From an uncultured Clostridia bacterium (GTDB taxonomy: Bacteria > Bacillota_I > Bacilli_A > RF39 > UBA660): DNA of 64,000 bases. Of the stretch, positions 22,763 to 52,717 are shown in pieces; position 1 is the stretch's first letter, and the number at the start of each line of letters is the position of its first letter. The notes beneath the pieces were generated by a model, which had not been told where the DNA came from, ran no database searches, and was given only the letters and a program-made list of their open reading frames with translations. Both the position numbers and the translations under genes were made by a program. The DNA lies in assembly GCA_947165135.1 (NCBI GenBank), contig CAMUZE010000002.1, positions 1-64,000 on the forward strand, in the 5' to 3' direction.

Positions 22763-23338
22763 ATGAAAATAAAAAGAAAAATTATATTTTTTATATCTTT
22801 AATGTCCCTATTTTATTGTGTCTCTTTAATGCAAGAGACATATGCTAAATATGTTTCAAGTGCTGGTGCTAATGCATATTTAACAGTTGCGAGATGGAAT
22901 GTACTTGTAAATAATCAAGATATTGTCGATAACTCAAACTTTTCAGATACAATTGTACCAACATTTGCTGGCACTACAAACATAAGAAGTGGTGTTATTG
23001 CTCCAACTGCTGAAGGAACATTTGATGTAACAATAGACGGAACTAACACTGATGTTTCATTCTCTTATACTGTTACCTTAGATGATGCACCTAATAATAC
23101 TGTTGAAGACCTACAAATAACCAAATATGTAATTGATAATGTCGAATATCAATACACAACAGGAATCACTGATAATATACTTTTAAATGCAGTTAATAGA
23201 AGCGTTACAATTACATTCTATGTAAAATGGAATGATGATGTTGCTACACAAACAATGGATAATGCTGATGATACAGAAGCAACAGTTGATGGTGTTGCAG
23301 CAGTAAAAGTTAATGTTAATGTAATACAATTACAATAA
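22763..23338 (+). CDS. SipW-type (TasA/camelysin-like) exported protein
   Basis: Signal segment ending ETYAKYVSSAGANAYLTVARWNV; paralogous to the product of 30547..31188. Confidence 0.7.
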   Translation: MKIKRKIIFFISLMSLFYCVSLMQETYAKYVSSAGANAYLTVARWNVLVNNQDIVDNSNFSDTIVPTFAGTTNIRSGVIAPTAEGTFDVTIDGTNTDVSFSYTVTLDDAPNNTVEDLQITKYVIDNVEYQYTTGITDNILLNAVNRSVTITFYVKWNDDVATQTMDNADDTEATVDGVAAVKVNVNVIQLQ

Positions 23339-23369
23339 AATAGCTAATACTTTTTTGTATTAGCTATTT
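23338..23369. terminator. Bidirectional terminator with perfect 13-bp stem
   Basis: AAATAGCTAATAC-TTTTTT-GTATTAGCTATTT. Confidence 0.85.
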
Positions 23370-24012
23370 GCTTGTGTGATATAAATCTTAACTCTTATTT
23401 GTATACAAGGGCTATTAGAATGAGCAGCCATATAATCATATGCTCTACTTCCCCAGTATGTATCCGCTGCATCGTCACCAGATTCATAAGGCCATACAAT
23501 AGATGTAGTAAATGTTGCTAAACCGGTCTCTGGTGCAATAGTACTTGTTGACATTGAAAAAGATATTTTAAAAGGATAATCACTTAATAATTTAGCTTTA
23601 AATTGATCGCTGGTTAGATCTCCTGTAACAGCTGTTTCGTTGTCTTCTTGTCTACCCTCAATAGTCTTAAAAGCATCTCCCATAATATTAGCTTCTAAAA
23701 TGGTAAATCTAGCTGTTGCACGTACTTCACTATAATTAAATGCAGTTATAGTATTAGTAAAATTACTCATACCAGGATATACATTATCAGCTGCTATATT
23801 AACATAATCTATTATTGGAGTATCTCCATCAGTAAAATCAATTTTCCAGGATCTAACATGTACATCTACACTATTATTAACTGTATTAACATATATTAAC
23901 CATGCATAAGTATTTGCTGTTAAAAACAAACCTAATATTATAAAATGTCTAAGTCTAATTTTTTTTAGAATCTTTAGAAACTTATTTTTTTTCTTTTTAT
24001 TCTCTTCCATCA
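23360..24012 (-). CDS. SipW-type (TasA-like) exported protein
   Basis: RLRHFIILGLFLTANTYAWLIYVNTVNNSVDVHVRSWKIDF; likely start at MMEENKKK; overlaps the upstream peptidase gene. Confidence 0.7.
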
Positions 24013-24566
24013 TCTTCATCCCTTGTATCAAACACAGATGAGATAATTTCAATGGAAACTATCAATGCAATTACCATGAATGTGAAAAAATACACAAATC
24101 TATTATTCATTAATTTCCCAAAAATACTTAATATCGCTGTTTTATATACTACTTTTCCATATATTTGATCATATGATATTTCTGGATCGGATATTGCATT
24201 AGCTACGCCTTTTGTGACAAAATAATATTCTCCGTTTTGTACTTCTTTTTTTACTACTTTATGAGTTATTATTATATCTTTCAATGTAGAAGTTTTACCT
24301 AAATATGTAACATTATCTCCGATATTAATGTCTTCGGCAGATGTTTGTTTAGACAAAAGAATATCACCAATTTCATATTCAGGTACCATAGATCCAGATA
24401 CTACGGTAAATATTCTAAATCCACCTACAGATATACTATTATTACTAAATTTCTGCACTATAATTACTAGTAATAACAATGCTACAATTATGTAAACAAT
24501 CCATCTTAATATTCTTAAGAATATATTATTTTTTAATTTTTCTTTAATCTGTCTAATCTTCTTCAT
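23997..24566 (-). CDS. sipW: SipW-type signal peptidase I
   Basis: VVSGSMVPEYEIGDILL (Ser) and ITHKVVKKEV...YYFVTKGVAN (His), flanking TMs. Confidence 0.88.
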   Translation of the reverse strand: MKKIRQIKEKLKNNIFLRILRWIVYIIVALLLLVIIVQKFSNNSISVGGFRIFTVVSGSMVPEYEIGDILLSKQTSAEDINIGDNVTYLGKTSTLKDIIITHKVVKKEVQNGEYYFVTKGVANAISDPEISYDQIYGKVVYKTAILSIFGKLMNNRFVYFFTFMVIALIVSIEIISSVFDTRDEDDGRE

Positions 24567-24568
24567 AT

Positions 24569-25699
24569 TTATCCCCTAAAACTAAATTCTAGTATCTTAC
24601 CAATAAATGCATCAATTCTCTCATTAAACTTATGTTCAAGTTCAGCAAGAGTTGCTTCATGTTTATTTTTAATAATGGCAATTTTATCACCAAGTGTCTG
24701 TTGTAATTTCTCAACGGGCATATCAGCATTTAATTCAACTATTTTATCTATCATTTTGTTAGTTATTTCTTCCACCAATTCTGACTTAGCATTATCATCT
24801 AATATTCCATCTTCTTTGTCAATACTAGACATAGTTAAATAATTAAGTAAGAATGTGTCATCGAGCATTTGTTTAACACCTAGGTCATTATCAATTAATT
24901 TCTTATCTTTTGTAACACCATTACCATAATTAGTATTAGCTTGCAAGAAGTCCCATAATTTCATTGCATATTGAAAGTTAGTATTTTTTAGTATTAGGTT
25001 AGTCTTTTTAATAGGTGGTATAACTCTCGCAACGTGTTCTTTTGCAAGCGAAACATATACTTGAGTATTAGTCAAATCAGATATTCTTAATTTCAATTTA
25101 TCTAATCTCTCAAATGCTGTCATTCCATTTCTTTCGCCATCTTCTTTATCATAACTAGTTTTTGAACTAATATGCATATTAATATTTATTCTTTCTGCAC
25201 CTATTTTAGATGATCCCATATATTCGCATACTTTATTATCTCTCAATCTAGAACTAGCAACCATGCTTCGTTCTTTCATATCAATATACATCCTCATATT
25301 GTTGATTAAAGTATATATCAATCTATTCTCATAGGTATTATAACTTTCATCTTTGTTAATATTTAATATTTTAGAAGGTCTAACATCCCCATTATCTTCT
25401 ATTTCTTGAATATAGTTAGTATGCTTAGATAAGTGCTTAATACTTTCAACTGTTATCCTTCTTGCTTGCTCAACTTTAACAATTTCTTCCTCATTTACAA
25501 TAAATCTATTAGGGTTTCTAAGTATATTGTCAAGATACATTATTGTATCTTCCATTATTTCAAGCCACGTGAAATCAGCTTCTATCTTTTCATAGTTAGA
25601 AGCTAAAGAGTATTCTGACTGCAATGATGCTTTAAATTTTGTAATTTTTTTTGATCTTGTGTTGTTATATAAGTCAACAACTCTTAAATCACTGTGCAT
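24569..25699 (-). CDS. DUF2357 / McrC-N-like protein lacking a recognisable nuclease domain
   Basis: ILNINKDESYNTYENRLIYTLINNM motif; adjacent to an McrB-like ATPase; no PD-(D/E)xK stretch seen. Confidence 0.6.
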   Translation of the reverse strand: MHSDLRVVDLYNNTRSKKITKFKASLQSEYSLASNYEKIEADFTWLEIMEDTIMYLDNILRNPNRFIVNEEEIVKVEQARRITVESIKHLSKHTNYIQEIEDNGDVRPSKILNINKDESYNTYENRLIYTLINNMRMYIDMKERSMVASSRLRDNKVCEYMGSSKIGAERININMHISSKTSYDKEDGERNGMTAFERLDKLKLRISDLTNTQVYVSLAKEHVARVIPPIKKTNLILKNTNFQYAMKLWDFLQANTNYGNGVTKDKKLIDNDLGVKQMLDDTFLLNYLTMSSIDKEDGILDDNAKSELVEEITNKMIDKIVELNADMPVEKLQQTLGDKIAIIKNKHEATLAELEHKFNERIDAFIGKILEFSFRG

Positions 25700-25718
25700 T
25701 ATTAACCCTTTCTATTTA

Positions 25719-27257
25719 TTAAGACATCTTCTTAAGTCTTAACACATATTCTATACATTCTTTCATTTTATTTTCACCAAATGTTTTATTCAAGAATTCA
25801 ACAAATCCATCGATTTCATCACGAATCAATGAGATATTTAATTGTTCAAATTTACGAAGTATTTTTCTTGCTATGAAATAGTCTACTCCGTCTACTTCAT
25901 CCCCACCACAGGCAATATAAACTGGAACAAATTTTTTCATATGGGCAACAATTCTGTTACCGAAAGCAATTCTAAAATGTTTGATAACATAATCATCCAT
26001 TTCTTCGATTTTATTTAAAACTGTTTCACTCATTTCATTGCTAGCAATTGCATCTTTAAACAATTGATTTACATATGAGTAATTAATATCTTGAGCAGGT
26101 ACATCCTCAGGTTCAAAAACTTGACCTTTATCATTAATATCTATAGGCATAGCACGGTCGTACACTTTATCAGTAACCATAAATGTAGAGTCATCGTTAT
26201 TGATTGTACCAATATACCAACAGTTAGGTGGTATTTTAAGTTTACCATTCATTAAATGTATTGGATCGCTTGGCCAACCAGAAGATACAACTTCAACAAT
26301 CCATTCATCTTGATTAGGCATTTCTAGAATAGATAGCATCTCAGCGAAATAATATTCGACACGAGATATATTCATTTCATCTAGGATTACTGTATGAATA
26401 TCATCAGTATAGCCTGCTTCATATAATTCTTTTAATATATCTGTTTCATTAAATTTCTTAGTAAATTCGTTGAAATATCCGAATAGTTCTGATCTATCAC
26501 GCCAAGATGGTTGTACGGAAGCAACACATGAGTCATGTTTTAAAAATTTTCCCCAAGCATAAGCAAGTGATGTTTTACCGGTACCAGATATACCTTGTAA
26601 AATTACAAGCTTTGTACTTGCTAAAGCTGATATAAATAATCTTATCATTTCTGTTTTATAGTACAATTTTAACTTGCCAGCTGCGAAGTTTCTAAACAAT
26701 TCAACCAATTCTTGTAAATTAAAGTTATTACCATAATTAGGAATCTTATAATCAGCATATTTTAAGTCAACATCATGCAATTTAGCAAATCTGATAGATG
26801 TATTTGTATCCAATTCTTCCTCTGGCTTGTTCTCCTCACCCTCGATTTTTTCTAAGGTAGGACTTTCATTAGGTTTTAGACCAATTTGAGAAACTTTCAT
26901 AGCTAAAATATCTTCTTTTTCTTTAAGAAGTGTCGCTACTCTACCATTCAAATCAGATATTTCATCTAACATTGACTCTTGTTCAACAATTGTTTTTCTA
27001 AATCTTATATACTTTCTTATAATAAATACTACTAGTAGCACTACTAAACCAACAAATATTAATAATATTAATACTGATATACCAAATAATACCCACTCAC
27101 CAATATTAAAATCATTTTTATAATTTGATGCTATCTTAATATATGCCCCTATATCAAAAATCTTCTTTATTCCGTTTATTATCCCTTTAAATATTGATAT
27201 AAATCCCGAAAAGAATTGTGATAGTATTTCATAAAAATATTTTATAAAAGTTTTCAT
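25719..27257 (-). CDS. Membrane-anchored McrB-family AAA+ NTPase
   Basis: Walker A GISGTGKTS; Walker B VILDEMNISRVEYYFAEMLSILE; sensor GTINNDDSTFMVTDKVYDRA; N-terminal TM plus coiled coil. Confidence 0.88.
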   Translation of the reverse strand: MKTFIKYFYEILSQFFSGFISIFKGIINGIKKIFDIGAYIKIASNYKNDFNIGEWVLFGISVLILLIFVGLVVLLVVFIIRKYIRFRKTIVEQESMLDEISDLNGRVATLLKEKEDILAMKVSQIGLKPNESPTLEKIEGEENKPEEELDTNTSIRFAKLHDVDLKYADYKIPNYGNNFNLQELVELFRNFAAGKLKLYYKTEMIRLFISALASTKLVILQGISGTGKTSLAYAWGKFLKHDSCVASVQPSWRDRSELFGYFNEFTKKFNETDILKELYEAGYTDDIHTVILDEMNISRVEYYFAEMLSILEMPNQDEWIVEVVSSGWPSDPIHLMNGKLKIPPNCWYIGTINNDDSTFMVTDKVYDRAMPIDINDKGQVFEPEDVPAQDINYSYVNQLFKDAIASNEMSETVLNKIEEMDDYVIKHFRIAFGNRIVAHMKKFVPVYIACGGDEVDGVDYFIARKILRKFEQLNISLIRDEIDGFVEFLNKTFGENKMKECIEYVLRLKKMS

Positions 27258-27265
27258 CTTTCACC

Positions 27266-28243
27266 TCACAATACAACTATTTCTGTTCCTATATCCTCTC
27301 TACTATTTATAATAATATCATAATATTTAGCATTTTTGTTAACAAAAATATAACTAAATAATAATAAACAATCAAAATCCATATCGTAACTCTCATCTAG
27401 TTCAACACAAATGCTAAATCCTTCATTAATTAATTTATTAACAGTCTTCTTGTTTTCTTTATATTCTTTATATTTCAGTTTCAAATTAACCTTGGATTTT
27501 AAAAACTCATTGTCAAGTACTCTTAAATATTTAAGTATTTTCTTTTGCTTTCCGAACAATGATGTTGGAAAATCTACAACATATTCATTTTTAAAATTTA
27601 ATTTAGTTATATCATCTATTACCCTATAAGATATCAAAAGTAATGATAAATATAATTTATTCTCATTCACCATTTCAGAATTATAAGCCTTTTCTATGGC
27701 ATATTCACTATATAATTTAGATAAATTACAATTTTGATCTAGTGTTACCACGCTTATATATCCTTGATATTTTTTTTCATTTAAACTAAATTCATTTGAA
27801 GTAAATACCTTAGATAATTCTTGTTTCTTGCTTAAAAAATTTCTCAATAAAGCTGTTAATTCTTCTTTAGCTGTTATGTTATATACTAACGTAATTGTAT
27901 TATCACTAAATAATGTTTTGATTAAAGAATTTAGTTCATTTGGTGTTTCACATTTTTCTATGAACAAAACATAACTAAATAATGCAAAAATATTTTTAAT
28001 TTTTTCTGACTTATCCTCATTTTCTTTAATCATCTCTTTAGCAATGCTATTTAATTCTTTGTTTAATCTTTCAGTAAATTTATTTTCTTTTATTACAAAT
28101 TCATTATAATACCTAATACTAATGTATTTATCTATAAAAGGCCTTACTAAACTTCTTTCATATTTATTGGCTAGTAAAATTCTAAAATAGCTAGAAAGAA
28201 AATTATCAATAAATTTCATATAATCATCAAAAATACAATTCAT
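27266..28243 (-). CDS. Conserved-cluster protein of unknown function, predicted cytoplasmic
   Basis: 325-aa ORF without TM/signal, tightly packed between ATPase and TasA-like genes. Confidence 0.6.
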   Translation of the reverse strand: MNCIFDDYMKFIDNFLSSYFRILLANKYERSLVRPFIDKYISIRYYNEFVIKENKFTERLNKELNSIAKEMIKENEDKSEKIKNIFALFSYVLFIEKCETPNELNSLIKTLFSDNTITLVYNITAKEELTALLRNFLSKKQELSKVFTSNEFSLNEKKYQGYISVVTLDQNCNLSKLYSEYAIEKAYNSEMVNENKLYLSLLLISYRVIDDITKLNFKNEYVVDFPTSLFGKQKKILKYLRVLDNEFLKSKVNLKLKYKEYKENKKTVNKLINEGFSICVELDESYDMDFDCLLLFSYIFVNKNAKYYDIIINSREDIGTEIVVL

Positions 28244-28251
28244 TTTTCCTC

Positions 28252-29154
28252 CTAACTAGCAGTAAATGATATTACAGGTGTGTTATTAACAATCGGGTAT
28301 GTATAATCTATACTACTATTTCTTTTATAAAATCTTACTTCTTGGCTCATCATCATATCCATTGGGAATGTTATACTGCTTATATAGTTTACTCCCTGAT
28401 ATGCAGTCGTCTGTGTTGTGGACGAAGCAACTATATCACTTGTTGTATCAATGATAATCACACTAGGATCAAATGATAATGTTATTACAACTGACGCACA
28501 TTTAGCTTTATCAGCGCTTGACAACGCTAAATATTCATCTATCGTTAATAAATGTCCAGCAGTATAATCTCCAAATGGAGTTATTACTTTATATGTGTCT
28601 AATGCATTTGTAACAGTAAAAATTAAATATGGAGAACCAACACTATCAGTTATTTGATAATCAACTCCTCTTCGACCTACTGTAACAACAAAAGTTGCAC
28701 TTAATGTTTTCTCATAAGGGCTACTAGATGAGGCAGTTACAGTTGCCGTGATAGACTCATTATCAGCAAAAGCACGAACAGGAATGATTGTTAAAGTAAA
28801 ATTATCTGTTTTTTCTGCTACTTGAATAACACCACTATTAGAATTTAAGTTGCAAAGAATTAAAGTGTTATCACAAGTGGTAGTGAGTGTATATGAAATA
28901 TCAGCATCACTTGTTAATATATTATTCTTATGGTTATTAAGTTCAAACTGTATTTCAATGTTACTCGCACCACCCCAGTTATTAATTCCATAGGTAATAC
29001 CGCCAGGGACTAATTTATCGCTATTAAAAAAGAAATTATTTGCTTCCATTAAATAATTTTTTATATTTTCAGTTACATATCTACTAAATGTAATTCCTAA
29101 TGGAAGTAATAGTATAATCATTATTAATATTATCAATATTTTACGTCTCTTCAT
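28252..29154 (-). CDS. SipW-type exported protein with Ig-like/beta-rich domains
   Basis: MKRRKILIILIMIILLLPLGITFSRYVTENIKNYLMEANNFFFNSDKL. Confidence 0.65.
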   Translation of the reverse strand: MKRRKILIILIMIILLLPLGITFSRYVTENIKNYLMEANNFFFNSDKLVPGGITYGINNWGGASNIEIQFELNNHKNNILTSDADISYTLTTTCDNTLILCNLNSNSGVIQVAEKTDNFTLTIIPVRAFADNESITATVTASSSSPYEKTLSATFVVTVGRRGVDYQITDSVGSPYLIFTVTNALDTYKVITPFGDYTAGHLLTIDEYLALSSADKAKCASVVITLSFDPSVIIIDTTSDIVASSTTQTTAYQGVNYISSITFPMDMMMSQEVRFYKRNSSIDYTYPIVNNTPVISFTAS

Positions 29155-29195: not shown

Positions 29196-29807
29196 TTATG
29201 CAACTTGGGATGCGTTTATAATAATGGAAAACATCTCAATAACCCCTTGGTAAGAATCTGGCTTATTTTTGTTTTCTAAAGGGAAAACAACTTTCAATGT
29301 ATATTCATCTGTTTCATCTCTCAAATGACTAAAAGTTCTAACGTCATCGCAATTATAAACTTTGTAATATACATCATTATCGTCTTGCCTCAAAAGTGTA
29401 TTTGAAATTATATTTGTGTGTGCACCTTCAAAGGACTGATTTCTTATTATTTCATACTGTAATGGGAGATTAGTAGTCGTTTCAAACTTAATAGTATATT
29501 CTAAATCAACATCTGCCCTTTTATTATTTTTCTTATTAGTAACATAAAATCTATAATACTTAGGTGCACTACTAGGTTCCAATCCATCAATATATATTTG
29601 ATTTTCATATAATCCTTGATCTATTACGAAGAATGCAACATTTGCATTGGCACTTACATCAACATCCGATTCATATCTTGTATATGTTCTTCCAGCAATA
29701 TTAACTATTAAAACTAGCGATACAAAAACAAATATTAGTTTAGTTACTAATAGGAACTTCTTTTTATCAAAAGTTTTAAAGAAATTACTAAGCATTCTTA
29801 TCTCCAT
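29196..29807 (-). CDS. SipW-type (TasA-like) exported protein
   Basis: LIFVFVSLVLIVNIAGRTYTRYESDVDVSANANVAFFVID. Confidence 0.65.
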   Translation of the reverse strand: MEIRMLSNFFKTFDKKKFLLVTKLIFVFVSLVLIVNIAGRTYTRYESDVDVSANANVAFFVIDQGLYENQIYIDGLEPSSAPKYYRFYVTNKKNNKRADVDLEYTIKFETTTNLPLQYEIIRNQSFEGAHTNIISNTLLRQDDNDVYYKVYNCDDVRTFSHLRDETDEYTLKVVFPLENKNKPDSYQGVIEMFSIIINASQVA

Positions 29808-30486
29808 TCATATTATTATCTATTCTTTTCATTAATTCATCTAAATCTAGTCTAACTGTATAATTTAAAAATTCTTGTTCTTTCTTATCAAAAGTCACCT
29901 TTTCCCCATTTATTACTTTATCTGTTTTCTTATATAATGCATTTATTTCATCACTAGTCATTTTAGGACTATTTTTTTCTTTATTAATCTCTTCTAAAGG
30001 AATATTCTGAATTTTATTAATTATTTTAATATTTTTCTTTTCTTTATATCCTTTATAAGAGAATGCAAAATCAAATAATATTAACGTAGTGAAAATCATT
30101 ATTAATATTGTTGGAGTTGTTAATACTTTATGCCAAACACCTGCTTTTGAAGAAATTTTAACAACTTTACCAATTATCTTATCTTTAGTAATTGCAACAT
30201 CTTTAGCATTATTAGCATCCCCTTTAGTAACATAATTATTAGTATTTACGGTTACAATTCTATGCGTGATATATGATTTTTCATTTTTAAATGTAACAAT
30301 ATCTCCAACGTTATAATTATTACTATCTTTTACAATTATTAAATCATTTTGACTAATAGTTGGTTCCATACTTCCGGTTGCCACGCTAAAAACAGAGTAT
30401 CCAAATAATTCGAAATAATCCTCTCCTTTTAGCATCATTCTAACTTTACCAATTATTATTAATACTAGTACTAAGAACACTAGCAA
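29788..30486 (-). CDS. SipW-type signal peptidase I, second copy (true start uncertain)
   Basis: VATGSMEPTISQNDLIIV, YITHRIVTVNTNNYVTKGDAN; in-frame N-terminus continues upstream as GVVKIIKKVVKTIVDIL without a canonical start. Confidence 0.82.
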   Translation of the reverse strand: MLVFLVLVLIIIGKVRMMLKGEDYFELFGYSVFSVATGSMEPTISQNDLIIVKDSNNYNVGDIVTFKNEKSYITHRIVTVNTNNYVTKGDANNAKDVAITKDKIIGKVVKISSKAGVWHKVLTTPTILIMIFTTLILFDFAFSYKGYKEKKNIKIINKIQNIPLEEINKEKNSPKMTSDEINALYKKTDKVINGEKVTFDKKEQEFLNYTVRLDLDELMKRIDNNMNGDKNA

Positions 30487-30546
30487 AGTTAAAATATCAA
30501 CAATAGTTTTAACAACTTTCTTTATTATTTTAACTACACCCCATTT

Positions 30547-31188
30547 TTAATTTCCTTCATTACCTTCATTTGGATCTTGGTATTCAACTAAAGTTTCCCC
30601 TAAATATTGAACAGCATGCACATTAATAGGAATAGCCAATTGGTTATTTTCAACCATTCCCAATTCAGTATCTGATTCATCATGATTTCCATCATCATCC
30701 CAATTTAATGTCACTCTTATGGTTATAACTTCATCATTTTGTATTGAAGCTAAACTAACTATTCCAGAATATGTGTTAACATCTGTCCTTATTGTGCTTC
30801 CTGAATTTAAAGCTTCAACGCTAACATTGATATTGTCTTCATAATCGATTTCATCTACTAAAAATTCAATATCATATTTTACTGCAACATCGCAGTCGGT
30901 AGCATCAAATATTAAATCAAAATACGCACTTGTTCCAGGCGCAATATATCCATCAGCAACTGTAGCAGAACTTTCATATACAAAGTTGCTTATAGTTATA
31001 TCTTCATCAAGTCCAGAAGTAATTAATTGATTACTTAATCTTATTATCCACTTTCCTATCTCATTATTTGCAATTCCATAAGCGTCTGTTTCAAATAAAG
31101 CATATGTATCTTTAAATATTAAAGCGGTTATTGCAACAAGCACAATAACGCCAGTCCATAATAATATTTTTATTTTATTCTTCTTCAT
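30547..31188 (-). CDS. SipW-type (TasA-like) exported protein
   Basis: TALIFKDTYALFETDAYGIANNEIGKWIIRLSNQLI; paralogue of 22763..23338. Confidence 0.7.
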   Translation of the reverse strand: MKKNKIKILLWTGVIVLVAITALIFKDTYALFETDAYGIANNEIGKWIIRLSNQLITSGLDEDITISNFVYESSATVADGYIAPGTSAYFDLIFDATDCDVAVKYDIEFLVDEIDYEDNINVSVEALNSGSTIRTDVNTYSGIVSLASIQNDEVITIRVTLNWDDDGNHDESDTELGMVENNQLAIPINVHAVQYLGETLVEYQDPNEGNEGN

Positions 31189-31708
31189 CTTTACTTGATT
31201 TAATTTCTTCTATTATTGAATAAACCTCATAAACTACGGCAAAAATTGTTGGGAATATAATAAAGAACATAAATCCCCATTTTGATTCTAAAATTGACAA
31301 AAGTAATCCCCATTTATGATATACTTTTGCTTCTTTAGCAGGACCCATTAATTTGTTAAATGACACAGAATCATCTCCAAAATAATATGCATCCTCTGCA
31401 TGATCAACTCTATCTATTCTATTTATTTTTCCATAATTAATAAACACAGCATCTTCTGGATTATCAATAATGAAGAATGCAAAATCTCCTACATTATATT
31501 TTTCTTCTATTACTTTTTTTGTAATAACTATATCATGTTTTAAATAATCCGGTTCTAATCTTTCATTATCAACAACAAATATTGAATAATCACCAATTTC
31601 ACTTACACTATATTTATTATAGGAAAGTAACAATATTGTAGTTACTATTGCTATAATAACCCAAATACTAATCAACACCCATTTTATTACGTTACCTATT
31701 ATCTTCAT
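31175..31708 (-). CDS. Degenerate signal peptidase I homologue (predicted pseudo-protease)
   Basis: Same architecture as SipW but SGSMxP is replaced by NERLEP and the THxVV His is absent. Confidence 0.7.
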   Translation of the reverse strand: MKIIGNVIKWVLISIWVIIAIVTTILLLSYNKYSVSEIGDYSIFVVDNERLEPDYLKHDIVITKKVIEEKYNVGDFAFFIIDNPEDAVFINYGKINRIDRVDHAEDAYYFGDDSVSFNKLMGPAKEAKVYHKWGLLLSILESKWGFMFFIIFPTIFAVVYEVYSIIEEIKSSKDEEE

Positions 31709-31743: not shown

Positions 31744-33255
31744 TTACTCATTTTTAGTCAATTCTTTGCCAGAATCAATAATGAATTTTATATCTTTTAA
31801 ATTGATACCTAAATTAATTATGTCATAATAGATTAATAGCTTATCGATATTTTCAATAATTTTATCTATTTGATCACTACTAATTTTTTCATCATCTACT
31901 ATAATTCCATTTAATCTGTATTTTTGACTTATCATTTCTAATACATTTTTTTCTTCTAATAGAACTATATTATCAATTACATCAACACTTCTATCATAAA
32001 TATATTTCTGTAATTCTAATAAATTATCATCTATAGATTTAATATTAATTTCCACATCTTGTTTTTGTAATAAATTAATAAAATAATTAAAATTATATGT
32101 AGTTAATTTTAAAACATCATAATAATTAGTCTCGGTTGTAAAATAATTTCTTATTACCTCTTTAATAGCAAGTTCATCTAAATCATTATATAGATTTGAA
32201 AGATTAGTAATAATTTTTTCTCTATCTAATTTGGCATTAGCGAGTTTTTCTCTATTTAATTTAAATAGTCCTTTTTTATTTATTTTCTTATTTATTGAAA
32301 ATAAATTTTTTTCTTCTTTAGATATTTCCTTTAATTTATTATTAAATAAATCTTTATATTCTTCTTTATGACTATATAATTCTTTAAAATCAGTGATAAT
32401 AAATTGATATTTTGAGTATCCTTTATATTCAATTAATGACTTTTTATAATTAACTAAATTGCCATAATTTCTAACATTCTCAGCATTTGTTATTAAACTA
32501 CTTATTAATATATTCATTTTACTATCATCATCATACTCATCAATATCTAATTTATCGTTAATAAATAAGTTATAAATATATTTTTTATTAGTGTGTTTTA
32601 TATTATCAACGTCATCTAGTTTTGCTCTATATAATGCTATATAATTATGGAAATCAAATTTAGAATATTTGGCTTTATAATAAGAATCTATCTTAGATTT
32701 GTTTTTATAATATAAATACCATATATTTAATGATATTTGCTTAATAATATTTGGCTCTTTAAAATATATTTCATTAAATATATTTTGTATTTCTTCTTTA
32801 GAATTTAATAGTGTACTTATATATAAGTTAACACTTTCAGTATGATTAAAATCTTTTTCAGTAAGAATAATTCCGACTGTTTTAAAACTATCAAATATTT
32901 CAAGTAATACTTCATTTATTTTACTTAGTCCTTCTCCACTTGAATTATTTAACTTATATAATAAGTAATTTAAATTCATTTTCTCATTAGAAGAACATCT
33001 AATATCAGATAATTTTAAAGTGTCGTAATCAATGCTAACATCTTCTAATTTTAATAATGTATTCTCATATACACTTGATATGTTAGTTCTTCTTTTGTTG
33101 ATTTCATCTTCACATTCTTTAAGTTTTACAATATATTCTTCTAAACATTTGGAAACATACTCTGTATATTTTTCTAGATTTTTCTTATTGTTTGTAGGAA
33201 GGATATCTATGTTAGAATTAATCTTTTCAATTTCTTCATTAATTTTATCAATCAT
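31744..33255 (-). CDS. Large helical/coiled-coil cytoplasmic protein of unknown function
   Basis: 503-aa K/E/N-rich ORF without TM; ATG overlaps the stop of a 33-aa ORF. Confidence 0.6.
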   Translation of the reverse strand: MIDKINEEIEKINSNIDILPTNNKKNLEKYTEYVSKCLEEYIVKLKECEDEINKRRTNISSVYENTLLKLEDVSIDYDTLKLSDIRCSSNEKMNLNYLLYKLNNSSGEGLSKINEVLLEIFDSFKTVGIILTEKDFNHTESVNLYISTLLNSKEEIQNIFNEIYFKEPNIIKQISLNIWYLYYKNKSKIDSYYKAKYSKFDFHNYIALYRAKLDDVDNIKHTNKKYIYNLFINDKLDIDEYDDDSKMNILISSLITNAENVRNYGNLVNYKKSLIEYKGYSKYQFIITDFKELYSHKEEYKDLFNNKLKEISKEEKNLFSINKKINKKGLFKLNREKLANAKLDREKIITNLSNLYNDLDELAIKEVIRNYFTTETNYYDVLKLTTYNFNYFINLLQKQDVEINIKSIDDNLLELQKYIYDRSVDVIDNIVLLEEKNVLEMISQKYRLNGIIVDDEKISSDQIDKIIENIDKLLIYYDIINLGINLKDIKFIIDSGKELTKNE

Positions 33256-33359: not shown

Positions 33360-36300
33360 CTATTTTATTATAATATACCTTTCTAATGTACCAATTATTG
33401 AAGTATCTCCATACAAGATAAATTCTATTTTATAAGTACCTGTTAATAAATCATCTTTGAGTGTAAATATTACTTGTGCATTATCAGTTGGATTATCTAA
33501 GAATATATATTCGTTAGTATTATATCCTTGGAACAATATATTATCTAAGTAATCAGCAGCATCCACTAATGTATAAGTTGTATCATATACTGTATTGTAG
33601 TTTCTTCTATACATTTTAAAATTAATCTTTGGGCTTGTCAAACCTGAATTATATCTTACGTTGTATACTATTGTATTATCACCATTAGCATTTGTTCCAG
33701 TTGCAGCATCTATCATCATTTCTTCAGCGCTAGTTTCAATATTTAAACCATATATTTCATTTACAATTTCAATATCAAGATCAACATAATCTGAAGAATT
33801 TAATCCATAGTAGATGCCATCTGGAGAACCGAACGTCTCGACTCGTAGTTTGTAATCTCCACTTGCAAGACTCGATGTTCCAGTATTAACAATTATCCAT
33901 TTTTCAGCACTATCAACCTTGTCTGCAATTTTAACTCTTGTAGTTCCATCAATATTTGGATAATATCTATCTTCACCAATTGTATAATATAGTCCAAGAA
34001 GAGTAATACCAGGAACAACATTACCATCTTCATTAATTAATGATATCTTAATACCCAATTTAGAATCAAAGTAATGTGTATCATATATAGTTGCAGAACC
34101 AATAGTAGATTGTGTGTATTCAATATCTAAGTCAGCTGTGAATGTTTCACCTGCATATATTTTTTCTTTATCAAGTTCACCATCTATATCTATTACAGCA
34201 TCCTTATTTGCATAAATATTATACACCAAATCTAAATGTTGTGGTGCTAAAACACTATAAATTGTATCGTTTGTTGCATTTCTTATTTCTAGTAATAATT
34301 CATTATTAAGAGCATCGGATGTAATATTAGTATCGCCAAAATCAATTATAAATATAAAATCTTCATTACAATAATTATTTGCTGTACAATACTCACTATT
34401 TTTAGTAGCATCATTATAATAAACACCACTATTTATAGCTCCCATAACCTCCAAAATTGAGAAATTATATGTTGCTTCATTATATAAACTTAATTGTGAT
34501 GTTGCAGACGTAACATCATTTTGAGTTATAACATGATAATAATATTCTGGTGTATTTTTACTTAAGTCTATCATAGTAATTTTAGTATTCAATGGTAATA
34601 CATAATTTGATACCAACGTTCTATAATATCCAGTTCTATATATTGTAGATCCAGAGTTAAATAATGAATAATATGTACTTATCGCAGATGATGAAGTTAT
34701 ATTAGCAGTAGTTGATGTAAATAAATCATATTTTCTACCTGGTGTTAAAGCACCTTCATAGTTTACAGTATCAAATAATGTACGGGTTAAATTAGCAGTA
34801 ATTATTAATCTTTTTGTTTCTTTAGTTAGTGCATCAATTTGTCTTACAGACATTAATTGAATTCTAACTCTACCCATATCTCCAGAAGTACCAATATTCT
34901 TTGAGTGATGTAAATAGAATAACACAGTTGGTGTAGATGTACTATTACCACCAACATATTCTCTGGTTCCAATTATATTATTATTTGCTCTTGATAAGAA
35001 CGAAGTATAACCATTAGTTAACCAACCAGAGTTACTTGTTTCCATTGAAAGACCCATGATTGTGTCTGCATCATTAGTAGTATTAGCTATCTTACTAATG
35101 TTTGTTTTTTCAACTAATTGAATGCCACTGGCTAATTCACTATAATCAAATCCAAGAATTTGGAAACTTGTATTTGGATCTGTAAAGTCTCTTAATGATA
35201 ACTCAGTAGTACCAAGAGTTGAATATTTAGATGCAGATAAGTCAACTTCATATTCAATAACGCCTTCACCAATAGTCCACATGTACATTTGTCCAACAGG
35301 TGGTATTGGTTCTATATAATTAATTTTATTTTTACTTGTTTCCTCATCAATATAGTTAGTATAAAAACCATCAACTTCTATATCATGATTTGTTTTATGA
35401 AGTCCTAAGACATAAGAACTTACATTATCAAATACGCCTCCCCAATCAAGAACTTCATCATAATTAAACTTATTATAAATACCTGTGTTAATTGTTCCAT
35501 TTCCATTATATTTATACATTCCAAAGAATGACATACCGCTTACTTCGCCATAGTCTGTTGCACTTTGGTTTTTAGCAATATTTAATTTCTTATCTGCAAA
35601 CATGTATACTCTATTGTCAACATTTTTAGTAACAGTTCCATGTTCAGTGTCTATTTGTACAGCAGCAAGGGAACCATTGCTAGTTAAACTCTTAAATTCT
35701 TTTAACAAGTTAGCACCAGTTTCCAAGAATAATGTTGAATTATTCTTAAGATCTAATTCATCTATTCTAGATAATGTAAATAGAACATCTGAATATTCAT
35801 TTTCTCTATCTGTTGCTCCTTCTAATACAATAGAAGAATTATCAATTACTAATAAATTTGTTCTTTGTATAGATACATTTCTCTTAGGATCATTAAATGT
35901 ACCATAATTTTTGATAGTAACAGTACTATCACCTGCTGCAGTTGAAGCATTACCACTTCCAAAGATTGAGCCTGATATAGTAAACTGATTTCTATTTGCT
36001 CCGTTAATATTAACATTAATACCTTGAGTAACACTAATGAATGTCCAGTCATATACATCAGAACCTGATGCATTGGCTTCGCCACCACCGAATACAGTTC
36101 CACTTATAACAATGTCACCACTACTAATTCCATTTACTAGTGTAACATCATTTCCTATGTTAACATCTGTTTCACCATATACTTTAGAAGTATTTGCGCC
36201 ACCATACACATTTCCATGTATTATAGCACCTGCAATTTTTACTGATGCAACGGAATTATCTGCTGATTGAGTACCAGTTTCGGCGGCATTTCCACCACCG

Positions 36301-39300
36301 AATACTGAGCATGAACTTAGAAGTGTACAACTCGATGTTCCAACCTCAGTAGTTCCACCAACTATAATACTTGTGTTTCCAAGTACTTTTGCAGTTGCTC
36401 CATTACCTCCAGCATAAGCACTTGTTCCTAAAGTAGAATCATTTATCATAACATCAGTGCTTCCTAGAACAATACCATTATTTCCTCCGCCATAGATGCT
36501 TCCACCTACAGTAATTCCATCCATTTTAAGTTCAGTTGAACCATTAACGGCAGCAGAAGTACCATTTCCAGCAGCATATACTGAACCATCTATAGTTGTT
36601 GTTCCATTAATTATTACAGATGTATTTGTTCCAACAGTACCATTATTTCCTCCACCATATACATCGTGGGCTAAAGTACCATCAGTTATTGTCAATTCAG
36701 TTGAACCAGTGACAGTTGCGGATAAACCATTTCCTCCGGCAAATACTGAGCCATATATGGCAGTTCCATCAATTGTTATTGATGTGTTTCCACCAACTGT
36801 ACCATTATTTCCTCCACCATATACATCATGTGATACAGATCCATCTATTATTTGTAATTCAGTTGTCCCACTTACTGTTGCGGATGAACCATTTCCTCCG
36901 GCAAATACTGATCCAGTAACCGGTACATTATCAATAATTATATTAGTGTTTCCACCGACAGTACCGTTGTTTCCTCCACCATATACATCTACCGCTACTG
37001 TACTATCAGTAATAGTTAGTCCAGTATTAACACCTACAGAAGCAGTTGTACCTTTACCACCAGCAAACACTGAACCACTTAATGCAGAAGAATCAATTGT
37101 CACTGAAGTACTTCCAGTTACAGCACCATTATTTCCTCCACCATAAACATCTCCGCCTATTGTACCATCAGTAATTGTTAGTCCTGTTGATCCACTTACT
37201 GTCGCTGTTGAACCATTTCCTCCGGCAAATACAGATGCACCAACAGATGCATTATCTATTTCAACCGAAGTATTTCCAGTTACAACGCCTTGGTTTCCTC
37301 CACCATATAGATTACCAGTTACGCTTCCTCCTAGTAAATCAACATCTACATTTCCATTTACATTAGCAGCATTACCACCACCATATAATGTGTTAATAGT
37401 TCCACCATTAACTACAGTAGTTGCACTTGTTACAGCTGCTTGGTTTCCTCCACCATATACATTTGTTATGGTTCCAGTTGTTATTTCTACATTTGTATCA
37501 CCTGAAGCGGCATTATTACCACCACCATATACATCAGTAATAACACCAGTGGTTACAGTTACATTAGTTGTTGTAGTTGAACCTCCTGCGTTGTTTCCAC
37601 CATATAAACTAGTTATAGTTCCATGATTAATTGTTATATTTGATGTGGTAACAGTTCCACTTTGATTAGAACCACCAAAAACACTAGTAACATGTAAATT
37701 GTTATTTGATGGAGTAATATTTACATTAGTTGTTGCAGCACCAGCTTGATTTCCCCCGCCATATACTGCGCCAATTGTATTTGTTGCATTATTTACTGTT
37801 ACATGTGTAGCCTCTGTTACAGCAGCTTTGTTTCCACCACCATATATTAAATTAGTTGTTCCGTTGTTTACTGTTACAAAAGTATTTGTTGCCGGTGCTT
37901 CATTACCACCACCAAATATAGTTGTTGCTGTTCCACCAGTTAATGTTACATTTGCAGCAGTTGTTGTGCCACCAGCATTATTTGCACCATATGCAGTTGT
38001 TGTTGTTCCACCATTAATAACTAAGTTAGATGTTCCAACATCACCTGTTGTATTAGATCCACCATATGCATTAGTGATTGTACCATTATTGATTGTTACA
38101 TGAGTAGTTGTAACACCTACTGAGTTACCTCCACCATATACATTTGTTACTGTACCTTTTCCAATAGTAACATTTGATGTAGTAACAAGTCCTGACTGGT
38201 TAGATCCACCATATACATTTGTCACATTTATATTATTACTTCCAGATTGAGATATTAAATTAACATTTGTAGTAGTTGCTCCTGCTTGATTTCCTCCACC
38301 ATATACATTTGGAATAGTGTTAGTGGCATTACGAACATTAACAGTTGTAGTTCCTGTACTAACTAAGTTACCACCACCATATACAGCGGAAGTTACCGCT
38401 CCTCCATTAATATTAACAGTTGTTGCGTTACATGTACCACCTTGGTTATTACCACCAAATATAGTACTTGTTGACCCTCCAGTTACATCTATTGTAGTCG
38501 TAAGGACTGTTCCACTCTGGTTAGAACCACCATACATAGTAGTTACTGAACCACCCCTCATGTATATGTGTGTATTATCAACAGAAGTTTTATTTCCACC
38601 ACCATATACATTTGTAATAGTTCCGCCATCTATATACACAAGGGGATCTTTTGCAGGCTTTCCAGCCTCATCAAATCCACCAAATACGCTTCCTATTGTC
38701 CCCCCATTTATATCAACTGTTATTTGACCAGGTACATAAGGAGTATAAGTACTACTACCTTTTGCACCCCCAAATACTGAGTCAGTAATTGTTCCTTTGT
38801 TTACTGTTACATTAACTGTTTTGTTATTAGCAGCAGGATTTGTTGCAACTGCATTAACTGTACCATAAGCACTACCACCATATACTGAACCATTAATAGT
38901 TGGGCCAGTTGATGATGTACCAATATTTACAGAGATATTATTATTTACAAAAGTACCATAATTGGTTGCATCTTGATAGCCACCTTCACCGCCACCATAT
39001 ACATCTGTTTTTACTGTACCCGCTTGTATATTTACAGTTGAAGAGCCATAAATTCTTCCTTTAGTACGAGAACCACCATATACTGAACCGTCTACTGTTC
39101 CGTCATCCATTGTAATTGTAATATTACACGTATTTCTATCAGTTCCAGCACCATTGTTATTTCCACCACCATATACTGAACCCTTTATTTCACCGCCGTG
39201 AATTATTATGTTAGTTGAATATGTTTGGTTAGTGCCTTTTTGTCCAGTTGCACCATGGTTTCCTCCACCATATACATTTTTATTTATAGTGGCTTCACCA

Positions 39301-42300
39301 TCTATAATAACATTTGAATTGTTAACAGTTCCAATTGAACTATATCCTTCTCGTCCATTTCCAATTCCAAATACACTTCCAGCTTCTACTTGTGAATTAG
39401 TTTCTAGTGTTCCAGATGCAATATTAGGATCTCCTATCACTGCTTTTCCGCCAATATATACATAAGAATCACCATCTACTGTACTTGTATACTGTGTATC
39501 ATCGCCTTCAATTCCGTTAGATCCACCAAATACCGCATAATTAACACGGCCACCAGTTACTTGAATAATTCTATTTCCATAAGTTTCACTTCGTCCGGCA
39601 CCTCCTATGATAACATCAACATATCCACCTTTCATATTGATATAACTATCATTATATGAACTAATATTAGATGTAGATAGAGGGCCACCTATTAAATTGT
39701 AAATCCAGCCGCCTTCAACTATTGCAAATCTTGGGCTAGTATGACTACCATTACCACGGCCGCCAACATATATACCAGCAGCATAATCTGCTTTATTACT
39801 TCCATATCTTCCACTTTTAACAAGAGTATGTAACATAGGAGTGGTAATATTAGTTCCTTTTATGTCTCCAAACCATGATCCTGATAAACAGTACATTACA
39901 TCTAATTTAGAAGACGTAGCAGGTGTTGTTTCAGTTACTTTATCATAATCATTTCCAAACGTTCCATATGCATCAACATATTGAGTAAACGAACTCAAAT
40001 AGTTTGCATTAGCGCCTGTAGTGGTTAATCCCAAGTTATTATATATACCTGATTCAACTATAAATGTGTATCTGGCCATATTAGAACTACTTACGGAACT
40101 CATATTTCCACCAATAACGTAATCAAAACTAACAGTAGTGTTATTATATGATGTAATATTTCTTCCTATCTTACAATTATGATAGTTACAATACATACTA
40201 TCATATGCTGGGGTGGTATAGTAATTATATCTACTTCCTCCACGTACCTGAGGCGATGTATCATCATCTATTCTATCCACACCTCTTATACGCATATTTT
40301 CAATTTTTGTATCATTATAAGCAAGTATTCTTAGTTCTCTTGCGTCCCAATAATATGAACTTATATTATTTGTATTACCTTGAACAGCAGTAAAAGTAAA
40401 TGGTTTATTTTGAGAACTTCCCCAAGTACCAGTTATATTTCCTCCCATCACTACAATGTTTGTATCTCTAGTTGTTTTGTAATATAGAATATCTCCATTA
40501 GTATAAACTTCAGGATTATTATTTATATCATAGAATTGTATTAATTCATAATAATTGCATCCACCATTAGTGTTACAAGTACCACTTGTCATTACATCGC
40601 CATCAGAATCAAAGTATCCAACTAATGACCCGTTTCTTGGAATATTTATAGTTCTATAATATCCTGCAGTAGATTCACCAACAGGTATTTCTGATGTATA
40701 ATTTAACGTTGCTGGAACAGTTGAAATAGTCATAGTGCCATTAACAAGTTTATAATAATCTGTATTGCTATTATATGTACCAGTAGCAGGTTCATAAAAA
40801 TAACATCTTCCAAATAAACCAGCGCTACATCTACCAGTTAATGGATTACCATTAGCATCAACTGCTCCCGCTGGATAATTGTTGTTATTACGAATATTGG
40901 AATATACATAAAAACCTGTTATGTCATACGTGTATGTTACAGCTGAAATAGCATGAAATCCATCATCTTCTAAATAACCAAATGTGTTAGACCAACTACT
41001 TGCATATGTTGTGATTGCTCCAACACCCCAAATTGCATAGAAATTGATATTGATGTTTTCAGGTGTTGTTCCATTATAAGTAATAGGTATTTTAACACTT
41101 CTAACATAAATATCTGTGTCTAGTGAAATTATAGCGTCACTATAATCAGTTAGCCAACCTTGGAATACACGATTATTAGGATTCTTACTATACGGATTAT
41201 CTATCAAATCAAACTCAACATAATCATCCGAAGTATTACTGCTTGTTCCATTATCATTAATTGGGTATACTTTGTAGTAAACAAATTGATTATGATTTTC
41301 GCTTGCAGATAAAACTCCTGTATATCTATTTTGATAATCCCTACCATAATAATGTGTTTCAATATACACTAAATTTGAATCGTTATATATATTTTTCTTT
41401 GTTGTAGTAGGTAGTGTCCCATCAGAAGAGTAAGTATAATTTAATCCATCATAATAATTAGCATCGCTTTCATATTCATTTATATATACTACTGTTCCTT
41501 CCGTACCACTATTATGAGCAGATGGAGCATTAGCTCTTAATGACTTAGTTCCTCTTTTAGGTGATGATTCATTTTTACCATTGTTTTGAAGTTTAAATAC
41601 ATTATCTTGTATTTTCCATTTTATATCGCTACCATCATTTAACAAATCTAACATTGCCTTTGTTGAGTAATTATTATTAAATTCTATTTTATTTTCATTG
41701 TTAACACGATATTTATACATAGTATCACTATCTTTAATATCATAATCTCCCATTAATGGTAATGTTGTAGTATTATAAATAATATTTTCAATAGTTGAAC
41801 CACCATAATTGCCAATTAATAAAGGACTTAATAATGTGCTTTCTGAACCAGATATACTAATATTTCGAACGACATTTTCTTGATTATCATAAAGAATAAA
41901 AACAGTTGAATAAATGTCTTTGCCTATGTCTTTTGTATTAATTCTAACGTTATTAATTGATATGTTTTTAATAGTTGAATGATCTGCACTTGATATTAAA
42001 GCAACATTGACTTTAGTTATTTCTATTTTCCCTTCTTTAATTTCACCAGGTATATCTTCAGGAGCATTATCATCTTTTACAGTTTCAATATCAGTATTAT
42101 CCTCGATACTATCAGTCTTTTCGCTAACGTCATTATCAGATTCAGAGTTTGTAATATTGTTAGGTATCTCATCATCTTTTTTATTAGTTTCTGCAGGTTC
42201 TTCATCTTTAATAGAGGCTACTTCTTCCCCACTACCACCATTATTTTCAGTTTTTCCTTCATCATTAGTATATGTAGTATCTTCATTTGCATTTTCTAGT

Positions 42301-43219: not shown

Positions 43220-44350
43220 TTAATGAGTTATTGTTGGGTCATCTAATGTGAATCCTAAATTATAAGTCAAATATGCTCCAGATGCTGAGTTTTCACAGTC
43301 TATATCTTGACCTTCTACCCACATATATACTCTAATCTTTGTAACACCAGCACTTAAACTGAATATTGGATAATAATCAGTTGCTCCTGAAGCAGCTTTA
43401 CCATAATATGAGAAAGTTGCATCATTAGTTTGAGAATATGCGGCATTAGTTCTTACAAGTGTTGCATGTGAATTACCAACAGCCTCAAAATATGTACTTG
43501 ATGGTGTTCCTGGTGGGTTAGTACTTGGTAATAAGATTGGACTTGAAATTTGAGCTTTAACTCCTACGTATGATACTGGGTCAGTTGCAAGACCAGTTGA
43601 TGAATTCCATGTTGAAACTGTAATACCATATGACTGATTAGCTGTAGTTATAGCAGCTTGAGTATGAGCATCATAATTTGGTTCAACTATAATTGATGAA
43701 GTACCATTTTTATAACCTTGTAAAGTACTTAGTGTTTCTGTTGCAGCACCATTTCCTTCAATTACAAATGCATATCTTGCAGCATTTTCAAGGTATTTTT
43801 GTGTATGACCAGAAGTATTTACAACGCCTGATCCTCTATCCAAATAAACAGTTGCAGCTTCATCAACTTTTAAGAAGATATCAAATGCAACAAAATCTGG
43901 GCTTGTACCAGTTGTAGTGCCTTGAATCCATCTAGATTCAGTTAATCTAGCACCAGTAGTTAGTGCTAATGCACCACCTTGGTTAGAGTCTCCTTCTACA
44001 GTACCTTTAAAGAATTCCATTAATCCTTTATTAGCACCATCAGTAGTTGTAACTGTACCACTAGTAGATACTGGATTTAGTTCACTAGGTAGCATATTAA
44101 TATTATTAGTATATGCAGTAGCATTATTAATATCTGAGTTGCTAATAATAGTTTTCCATTCATTAGCATCAGTAGATATTTGTAGACCAGTACTTGCAGC
44201 AATATGAACATTAATTGGATCAATTGTTACAGTTCTGTTTGCAGTAAACCATGCATATGTTGATGTAGATAACATTAATACTGTTAAAAACAACAATAAT
44301 ATCAATGATCTAAGTCTTTTTCTTCTTTCATCATTTTTCTTTTTTGCCAT
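43220..44350 (-). CDS. SipW-type (TasA-like) exported protein
   Basis: MAKKKNDERRKRLRSLILLLFLTVLMLSTSTYAWFTANRTVTIDPINVHIAASTGLQISTDA. Confidence 0.75.
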   Translation of the reverse strand: MAKKKNDERRKRLRSLILLLFLTVLMLSTSTYAWFTANRTVTIDPINVHIAASTGLQISTDANEWKTIISNSDINNATAYTNNINMLPSELNPVSTSGTVTTTDGANKGLMEFFKGTVEGDSNQGGALALTTGARLTESRWIQGTTTGTSPDFVAFDIFLKVDEAATVYLDRGSGVVNTSGHTQKYLENAARYAFVIEGNGAATETLSTLQGYKNGTSSIIVEPNYDAHTQAAITTANQSYGITVSTWNSSTGLATDPVSYVGVKAQISSPILLPSTNPPGTPSSTYFEAVGNSHATLVRTNAAYSQTNDATFSYYGKAASGATDYYPIFSLSAGVTKIRVYMWVEGQDIDCENSASGAYLTYNLGFTLDDPTITH

Positions 44351-44355
44351 AAGCC

Positions 44356-45078
44356 TCACTCCAATTCTTTTATTGTTTCACTATTATGCTCTTCTGTTAG
44401 TTTCATATGTAATCTTACATGTCCACCAATTAGAGCATTTGTACATTCTGGGTCGTCTCCCTCAATCCAAATAACAACTGTTATTTTATCAAGGTCTCCA
44501 GCCTTCATGTCTTTTCTTTGTTCTAATATAATAGTTCCGTCTTCATCATCCCTGAACTTTACCGTTCCTTTTTCTGGTGCACCATTTATACTACTACCCT
44601 TAGCATAAACAGTTTTTACATCATTTAGATAAATCATTATTCGAAGTGCTTCATCAGCATTCTTAATAACATCATCCATCATAATGTAATACCAGTAATT
44701 AAGAATAGCTTGTCCTTGATTCTCCATATAGAATGAATATGCTATATAATTTTTTCCATTGTGTGATCCTTCATGTTCCGTAATATCATTTGGAAGCCAC
44801 TTTATAGATATATTATCCATAAATTGCAAGTCATCCGCCTTTAGTCTCCTTTTTGGAGTTGGATCATTTAAAGTCTCATACATCGCAAGTCCACTATATA
44901 ACATCTCATTTCTATCGAGTGAGACAATGAAACTACCATCATCAAGAAGAATCTTTAAAACAATATAAACAACTATTAATAACAAAAGCAACAAAAATAC
45001 AGAAAGTTTAATAAATCTACCTAACTTATGCCACCCTCTAATTCTATTTGCTTTAACTACTACATCGTTTTTTGCCAT
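44356..45078 (-). CDS. Membrane-anchored extracellular protein of the TasA-like cluster (start revised to MAKND)
   Basis: One TM; C-terminus VVIWIEGDDPECTNALIGGHVRLHMKL parallels the 43220 product; SD AGGAGAG before ATG at 45078. Confidence 0.65.
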   Translation of the reverse strand: MAKNDVVVKANRIRGWHKLGRFIKLSVFLLLLLLIVVYIVLKILLDDGSFIVSLDRNEMLYSGLAMYETLNDPTPKRRLKADDLQFMDNISIKWLPNDITEHEGSHNGKNYIAYSFYMENQGQAILNYWYYIMMDDVIKNADEALRIMIYLNDVKTVYAKGSSINGAPEKGTVKFRDDEDGTIILEQRKDMKAGDLDKITVVIWIEGDDPECTNALIGGHVRLHMKLTEEHNSETIKELE

Positions 45079-45144
45079 AAATACTCTCCTATGAAAAGTA
45101 GTAATCAATACATGATAAAAATCTCTACTATCATATATACTTTA

Positions 45145-52185: not shown

Positions 52186-52717
52186 TTCTATATTATTAAA
52201 AGATTGCATAAATAATTCTTCAGATATTAAAGCATTATTAAAAAATAAAAGTATAAGTAAATTAATAAATCGTATTGACAATAATAAAATAGTTAAAGTA
52301 AACTCACACTTAATTCATAAAAATAATATTTTTCAAATTGAGCAATTTATATTTAATCTAGACAACTATATTAGTTTTATAAAAAGTTTATTAAACATTA
52401 ATTCACTAGAAATTAGATATATTATTGATTTAACTTTAGATAATAAATATAATAAAATACTATTGTCTAATATATATTTCTATGACAATAAAGATTTCTA
52501 TATAAATAATTTTAAAAAGTTATTTATGTATAAATATATTAAAAATATAAATATTTTAAAAAAATACATTAGTATTAATAAGCTTAGTTTCGACAACCTT
52601 ATAATAAAATTAAATCAAAGTAAAAATAAGGCTCATTTTTACTTTGAAGATATATGTAAAAATTTACCTTATTATGTTGATATTGTTAATTATTTAGAAA
52701 ACACATCTAACATATGA
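52175..52717 (+). CDS. Hypothetical protein, translationally coupled to the upstream XRE regulator
   Basis: ORF overlaps 52185 by 11 nt and overlaps the 3' end of the Fic gene. Confidence 0.5.
   Translation: MRINSILLKDCINNSSDIKALLKNKSISKLINRIDNNKIVKVNSHLIHKNNIFQIEQFIFNLDNYISFIKSLLNINSLEIRYIIDLTLDNKYNKILLSNIYFYDNKDFYINNFKKLFMYKYIKNINILKKYISINKLSFDNLIIKLNQSKNKAHFYFEDICKNLPYYVDIVNYLENTSNI

Follow-up and report, generated by a model that had tools for sequence, protein, structure and literature searches.

A membrane-anchored McrB-type AAA+ NTPase and a nuclease-less DUF2357 protein are encoded side by side in the window, the 64,000-nucleotide stretch of DNA analysed here, within an operon of SipW-type signal peptidases and exported proteins, and the pair is probably part of fibre biogenesis rather than of restriction. 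On balance, we think it likely that the two proteins form the energy-consuming component of a surface-fibre system that depends on SipW. The two ORFs lie where the first-pass annotation had placed them, separated by 19 bases, and together with the surrounding genes they form the following set:

22763-23338 (+): exported SipW-type-signal protein of family c1 (TYAKY), transcribed divergently
23360-24052 (-): exported single-TM protein of family c4 (NTYAWLIY), called ORF overlapping 23997-24566
23997-24566 (-): SipW-type signal peptidase directly after the DUF2357 gene, with Ser and His present and the box-E Asp replaced by Val (alignment)
24569-25699 (-): DUF2357 (McrC N-domain) partner, 376 aa, nuclease-less, with a helical C-terminus (Pfam, AF2 model)
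25719-27257 (-): membrane-anchored McrB-type AAA+ NTPase, 512 aa, with an N-terminal segment, a TM helix, a charged linker and the NTPase domain (sequence, profiles)
27266-28243 (-): upstream partner, 325 aa, with a predicted degenerate EAL-like fold, fused to SipW in ten relatives (model, loci)
28252-29154 (-): exported SipW-type-signal protein of family c6 (TFSRY)
29196-29807 (-): exported protein, TYTRY signal, 203 aa
29788-30486 (-): SipW-type signal peptidase with Ser-His-Asp intact (alignment)
30547-31188 (-): exported SipW-type-signal protein of family c1 (TYALF)
31175-31708 (-): SipW-like protein without the catalytic Ser and His (NERLEP; YGKI), a predicted pseudo-enzyme (alignment)
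31744-33255 (-): c9, a conserved soluble protein of 503 aa whose gene separates the SipW-like gene from that of the giant protein
33360-43091 (-): giant exported protein, 3243 aa, with an N-terminal TM/signal and Gly-Gly-rich repeats
43220-44359 (-): exported protein of family c8 (STYAWF; conserved WxEGxD)
44356-45108 (-): exported protein of family c10, the usual neighbour of c8

In the window's lineage, the operon runs from the giant protein and c9 through the SipW-like gene, c1, SipW and the small exported protein to c6, followed by the EAL-like gene, McrB, DUF2357, SipW and c4, with the second c1 gene divergent and c8/c10 often close to the operon. Because the called c4 ORF overlaps the preceding SipW gene, the true c4 start is probably downstream. 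A family match was sought for c9 and none was found, and the giant protein, which contains dozens of Gly-Gly-rich repeats (YGGGN...) and has one DNA repeat block with a period of 162 bases, is probably a beta-helical surface protein. The flanks consist of housekeeping genes (rpsF-like, ssb-like and dus-like genes, by sequence, and argS and typA), and a Fic/DOC-family protein is encoded outside the operon, at 52690-53763(-).

The main sequence elements of the pair are located as follows:

27018-27095 (-): McrB TM helix, roughly residues 55-80, with positive charges on its C-terminal side (hydropathy)
26568-26594 (-): Walker A GISGTGKTS, residues 222-230, invariant or nearly so in 61 homologues
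26370-26384 (-): Walker B LDEMN, residues 292-296, invariant in 61 homologues
26190-26201 (-): NxD(D) signature N353-N-D355-D356, in the McrB NxxD/NxD region (alignment of 61 homologues)
25241-25612 (-): matched part of DUF2357 (PF09823) in the partner, residues 30-153, including YENR

The earlier description of an McrB-like AAA+ protein carrying Walker A, Walker B, GTINNDDST and KVYDRA is borne out, all four elements being present and invariant or nearly so in the 61 NTPase homologues compared (about 53-86% identity). GTINNDDST comprises residues 350-358, in which N353 and D355 are invariant and D356 nearly so, and KVYDRA, which contains the conserved arginine, residues 364-369. When the NTPase profile was searched against solved structures in the PDB, the sole convincing matches were E. 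coli McrB chains (E 3.4e-6), and hhalign of the same profile against E. coli McrB gave a probability of 96.9% (1.9e-10). Bell et al. describe a McrB branch in which NxD replaces NxxD and the next residue is usually D or E (PMC11090510). The N353-N-D355-D356 stretch fits this NxD pattern, and D356 stands opposite the E. coli McrB aspartate in an ungapped alignment, so the change from NxxD to NxD is not itself visible as a deletion here.

A DNA-binding domain was sought in residues 1-195 of the McrB protein and none was found; a TM helix sits there instead, as the first-pass annotation had proposed. This helix is both real and conserved. In the window its best 19-mer covers residues 62-80 (Kyte-Doolittle 3.75), and an equivalent hydrophobic 19-mer is present within the first 130 residues of all 61 homologues (2.6-4.0). 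Lysine and arginine average 5.2 per 15 residues after the TM helix vs 1.4 before it, the excess falling on the C-terminal side in 61/61 proteins, and aspartate and glutamate average 0.8 after and 2.5 before. By the positive-inside rule, this excess indicates an N-out orientation with a cytoplasmic NTPase domain; thus, the NTPase domain is predicted to lie on the cytoplasmic side, and the first ~55 residues outside the cell or in the membrane face. Judged by eye, both the coiled coil and the amphipathic helix at the N-terminus seem correct, and the charge pattern would place the predicted coiled coil inside the cell, on the opposite side to that of the usual FtsB topology. Matches of the N-terminal segment to FtsB relatives are weak (PF04977 DivIC, E 0.061, in 1 of 11 members; ftsL_broad, 0.18), so that the FtsB/DivIC homology of this segment is weakly supported by sequence.

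The partner had been assigned to DUF2357 and described as lacking a nuclease, and both points hold. It passes the PF09823 gathering threshold (4.1e-10, 39.7 bits vs a cut-off of 23.3), and this family is matched by nine of 11 homologues (the window partner plus ten relatives). Nuclease families were sought in the same 11 proteins, with no match in any. The AF2 model of the partner (mean pLDDT 79, pTM 0.53) has only one strand after residue 187, which leaves no room for a PD-(D/E)xK core, and ends in long C-terminal helices (residues 302-323 and 329-375); in three distant relatives (L055, L056 and L058) the DUF2357 protein has long charged C-terminal extensions. Neither McrC nor a nuclease was among the best PDB matches of this model in Foldseek, a result that, with a pTM of only 0.53, argues against a nuclease core and does not prove an McrC fold. 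The hhalign comparison of the partner with E. coli McrC was not significant, and its predicted DUF2357 identity rests on Pfam. The partner diverges far faster than the NTPase, with a mean column identity of 20% vs 69%.

Relatives of the NTPase were retrieved from GTDB genomes, in which at least 569 candidate stretches encode one, and 80 loci, among the matches listed, were examined; these come mostly from Bacilli and Clostridia of the gut and rumen. In 78 of the 80 loci, the gene next after McrB is that for DUF2357, at a median distance of 14.5 bases, the two exceptions being due to a contig end and to a split McrB frame. SipW is the next gene after DUF2357 in 70 of the 80, and the gene before McrB encodes an EAL-like protein in 60 and a fusion of SipW with the EAL-like protein in 10. 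Taking the 58 loci with at least 4 kb of flank on both sides, SipW and SipW-type exported families are found within 9 kb in 56. In L123 and L126 the pair stands beside a giant protein, without SipW within 9 kb, an arrangement that is possibly another variant. Across 100 related genomes, SipW is present in all 28 that have the NTPase vs 50 of the 72 that do not (Fisher 2.4e-4, not corrected for kinship, a value that overstates the association since species that share ancestry are not independent observations; outside the window's family, the Fisher value is 0.047). In these genomes, SipW clusters exist without the NTPase, and the NTPase never without SipW. The pair and the scanned operon proteins gave no match to a nuclease, HEPN or other.

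TIGR02228 matches the window at 24099-24512 and 30091-30507, and weakly at 31226-31672. Reading all SipW copies by alignment to the intact protein at 29788-30486, and with Ser-His-Asp as the catalytic residues, the paralogues fall into three forms: intact (Ser-His-Asp), Asp-less, and Ser/His-less. The triad is present in the 27 SipW copies located four genes before McrB and in all ten fused copies. Ser and His are kept in the copies that follow DUF2357, but the Asp position is occupied by another residue, hydrophobic or not, in 66 of the 68 tallied; this altered catalytic site persists across many genera. Most copies six genes before McrB are without Ser and His, as is the SipW-like protein in the window, which is kept in relatives and is a probable pseudo-enzyme.

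The candidate substrates of these peptidases share a signal. The site at which SipW cuts TasA has an aromatic residue at P2' (PMC10269814). Of the 353 proteins in the five exported families, 344 have an A/G/S-x-aromatic motif after the N-terminal hydrophobic stretch, vs 113 of 242 controls, these being other proteins with an N-terminal hydrophobic stretch, including unassigned exported proteins of the same operons. The SipW-dependent-type signal TIGR04088 is matched by 5 of 23 c8 members. Known SipW systems export polymer-forming proteins (PMC7395162). PDB profile searches with families c1 and c4 gave no significant match to TasA or to any solved structure, so their designation as fibre subunits would follow from signal and context.

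The third protein of the core, encoded directly upstream of McrB, was modelled with a pLDDT of 94. Its best 39 PDB matches in Foldseek are all EAL-domain proteins (probability 0.87-1.00; best E 2.1e-4), with modest TM-scores (up to 0.41 by query and 0.50 by target), and it resembles degenerate EAL domains such as FimX. A rough control search against viral structures gave nothing (best E 0.087). One distant relative (L128) matches Pfam EAL PF00563 at 2.6e-4, below the cut-off, and profile-profile comparison of the family with five E. coli EAL proteins was not significant. In a string search, the EAL and DDFGTG catalytic residues were largely missing ('EAL' in 3 of 51 members and D[DE]F[GS] in 2 of 51). 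The protein thus probably has an EAL-like fold that is catalytically degenerate. Ten loci encode it as a single polypeptide with an intact SipW, Ser-His-Asp being kept in all ten, and these fusions tie the peptidase to the protein that adjoins the NTPase. The host genome carries two GGDEF domains (G000:C37:3478-3900 and G000:C1:1165-1572), and no EAL domain is detectable in it by Pfam.

Homologues from mobile elements differ from the anchored form. In those on plasmids, the similarity is confined to the NTPase domain (about 39% identity at best, with less than 80% of the query covered in every case), and partial relatives number two in the phage collection and three in viral contigs; the full-length anchored form was sought in the phage, viral and plasmid collections and is absent from them. 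No N-terminal TM of this kind was found in the six plasmid homologues and one phage homologue examined. One of the McrB-like ORFs from viral contigs, L140, starts with a hydrophobic segment (Kyte-Doolittle 3.08 at residue 7). In a tree of the NTPases, the anchored forms lie on one side of the branch that separates them from the plasmid/phage homologues (92/88; 98% of bootstrap trees), and the root and the placement of E. coli McrB are unsure, because it and the outgroups sit on very long branches. Three other accounts of the locus were rejected: a degraded McrBC, because the motifs are conserved across many genera; a mobile element, because of the flanking genes and the conserved operon; and a chance juxtaposition, because the gene order is kept down to about 53% identity.

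The SipW and exported-protein context, the housekeeping flanks and the absence of the anchored form from the mobile collections all support a task other than restriction, as had been proposed from the sequence of the window. The role in a fibre system is fairly well supported by context, and for the use of NTP we infer the following mechanism. By analogy with McrBC, the NTPase would form a hexameric ring at the membrane, with the DUF2357 protein as its stalk, seated in the pore and stimulating hydrolysis. The EAL-like adaptor would dock the ring on SipW beside the Sec exit, where NTP hydrolysis would remodel the membrane-held complex of SipW and pre-subunit. This remodelling would time or drive the release of subunits, once cleaved, into the fibre as it grows, and the catalytically dead SipW would act as a scaffold. 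That the pair remodels or drives assembly, rather than acting in signalling or gene control, is a tentative proposal that falls a little short of an even chance, and docking exactly as described, with the EAL-like adaptor, SipW and the Sec exit, is unlikely to be right in every detail. For the reading as a whole, an McrBC-derived membrane machine that powers or gates SipW-dependent fibre assembly, with the EAL-like adaptor joining motor and signal peptidase, the chances are likewise slightly below even.

Other explanations take up parts of the same evidence. The NTPase and DUF2357 protein might monitor fibre export or assembly and signal inwards. The EAL-like protein would then serve as the signalling arm, and the pair would have no part in powering assembly. 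The resemblance to degenerate EAL domains such as FimX and the two GGDEF domains of the host would fit such envelope sensing, as would the report, cited in PMC13082335, that B. subtilis SipW is bifunctional and also affects matrix genes. Nevertheless, we consider it improbable, given that the EAL catalytic signature is missing in nearly all members, that the operon proteins scanned contain no DNA-binding or output domain, and that NTPase motifs conserved so strongly are a better fit to work than to sensing. Since biofilm matrices often hold DNA, an McrB ring that still moves nucleic acid at the membrane, for instance in DNA release or uptake linked to the matrix, could also be imagined, and McrB relatives are believed to translocate DNA (PMC11090510). 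However, no DNA-binding domain was found in the NTPase or the DUF2357 protein, no genes for competence or conjugation were detected among those of the operon, and we regard this role as very improbable.

The related CoCoNuTs are predicted defence systems according to Bell et al. (PMC11090510). The pair could be a CoCoNuT-like membrane antiviral system linked by chance to surface proteins, for example guarding a phage receptor; the PADLOC candidate PDC-M26A does match the NTPase domain (7e-35, residues 196-320 only), and the nearest unanchored homologues on plasmids and phages adjoin kinases, helicases and methylases. Against this, nuclease-less CoCoNuTs always have a nuclease or HEPN partner, according to the same authors (PMC11090510), whereas no such partner was found here among the operon proteins scanned; moreover, the locus lies between housekeeping genes and the full-length anchored form is absent from the phage, viral and plasmid collections. 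A defence role is therefore rather doubtful, and less likely than envelope sensing.

McrBC is a standard example of a motor for DNA restriction, and if the NTPase does drive fibre assembly, a defence motor has changed its job. Its linkage in the 80 loci is with signal peptidases and exported proteins and not with nucleases, and each of the 61 proteins tested has a membrane anchor; the system would then be a new energised export or assembly pathway, previously uncharacterised, in uncultured gut Bacilli and Clostridia, in which the SipW-EAL-like fusions make the link between protease and motor directly testable.

The closest described system is CoCoPALM, which Bell et al. (eLife 2024) named in one main-text paragraph and left uncharacterised there (PMC11090510). 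Judged by the features that can be tested in sequence, the pair belongs to CoCoPALM and its architecture is not new: an NxD-clade McrB-like NTPase, a TM/coiled-coil N-terminus, a DUF2357 partner and genes of the signal-peptidase family are common to both. That paragraph also describes the N-terminal segment as homologous to FtsB and a coiled coil fused to the McrC homologue (PMC11090510). The third, EAL-like protein with its fusions to SipW, the three-way split of SipW, the exported families and the giant protein go beyond what it contains. With CoCoNuT the locus shares the NxD motif and the coiled-coil architecture, and it differs in its membrane anchor and fibre-type operon, and in that no nuclease or HEPN gene was found.

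With E. coli McrBC the pair shares the McrB-type AAA+ domain and a DUF2357-type partner encoded next door, but it has neither the methylcytosine-binding domain nor the PD-(D/E)xK nuclease, and it has a membrane anchor and a different operon. An NTPase of this kind is not generally needed for fibre assembly, since the well-studied SipW/TasA and SipW/BsaA systems do without one. The matrix operons of Bacillus (SipW-TasA) and Clostridium perfringens (SipW-BsaA) have in common with this one a SipW-type peptidase and dedicated exported substrates with a SipW-type signal, although by sequence the exported families described here are not detectably related to TasA. In contrast to those operons, the present one contains several SipW paralogues, including a dead one, and combines them with a membrane NTPase, a DUF2357 protein and a putative EAL-like adaptor.
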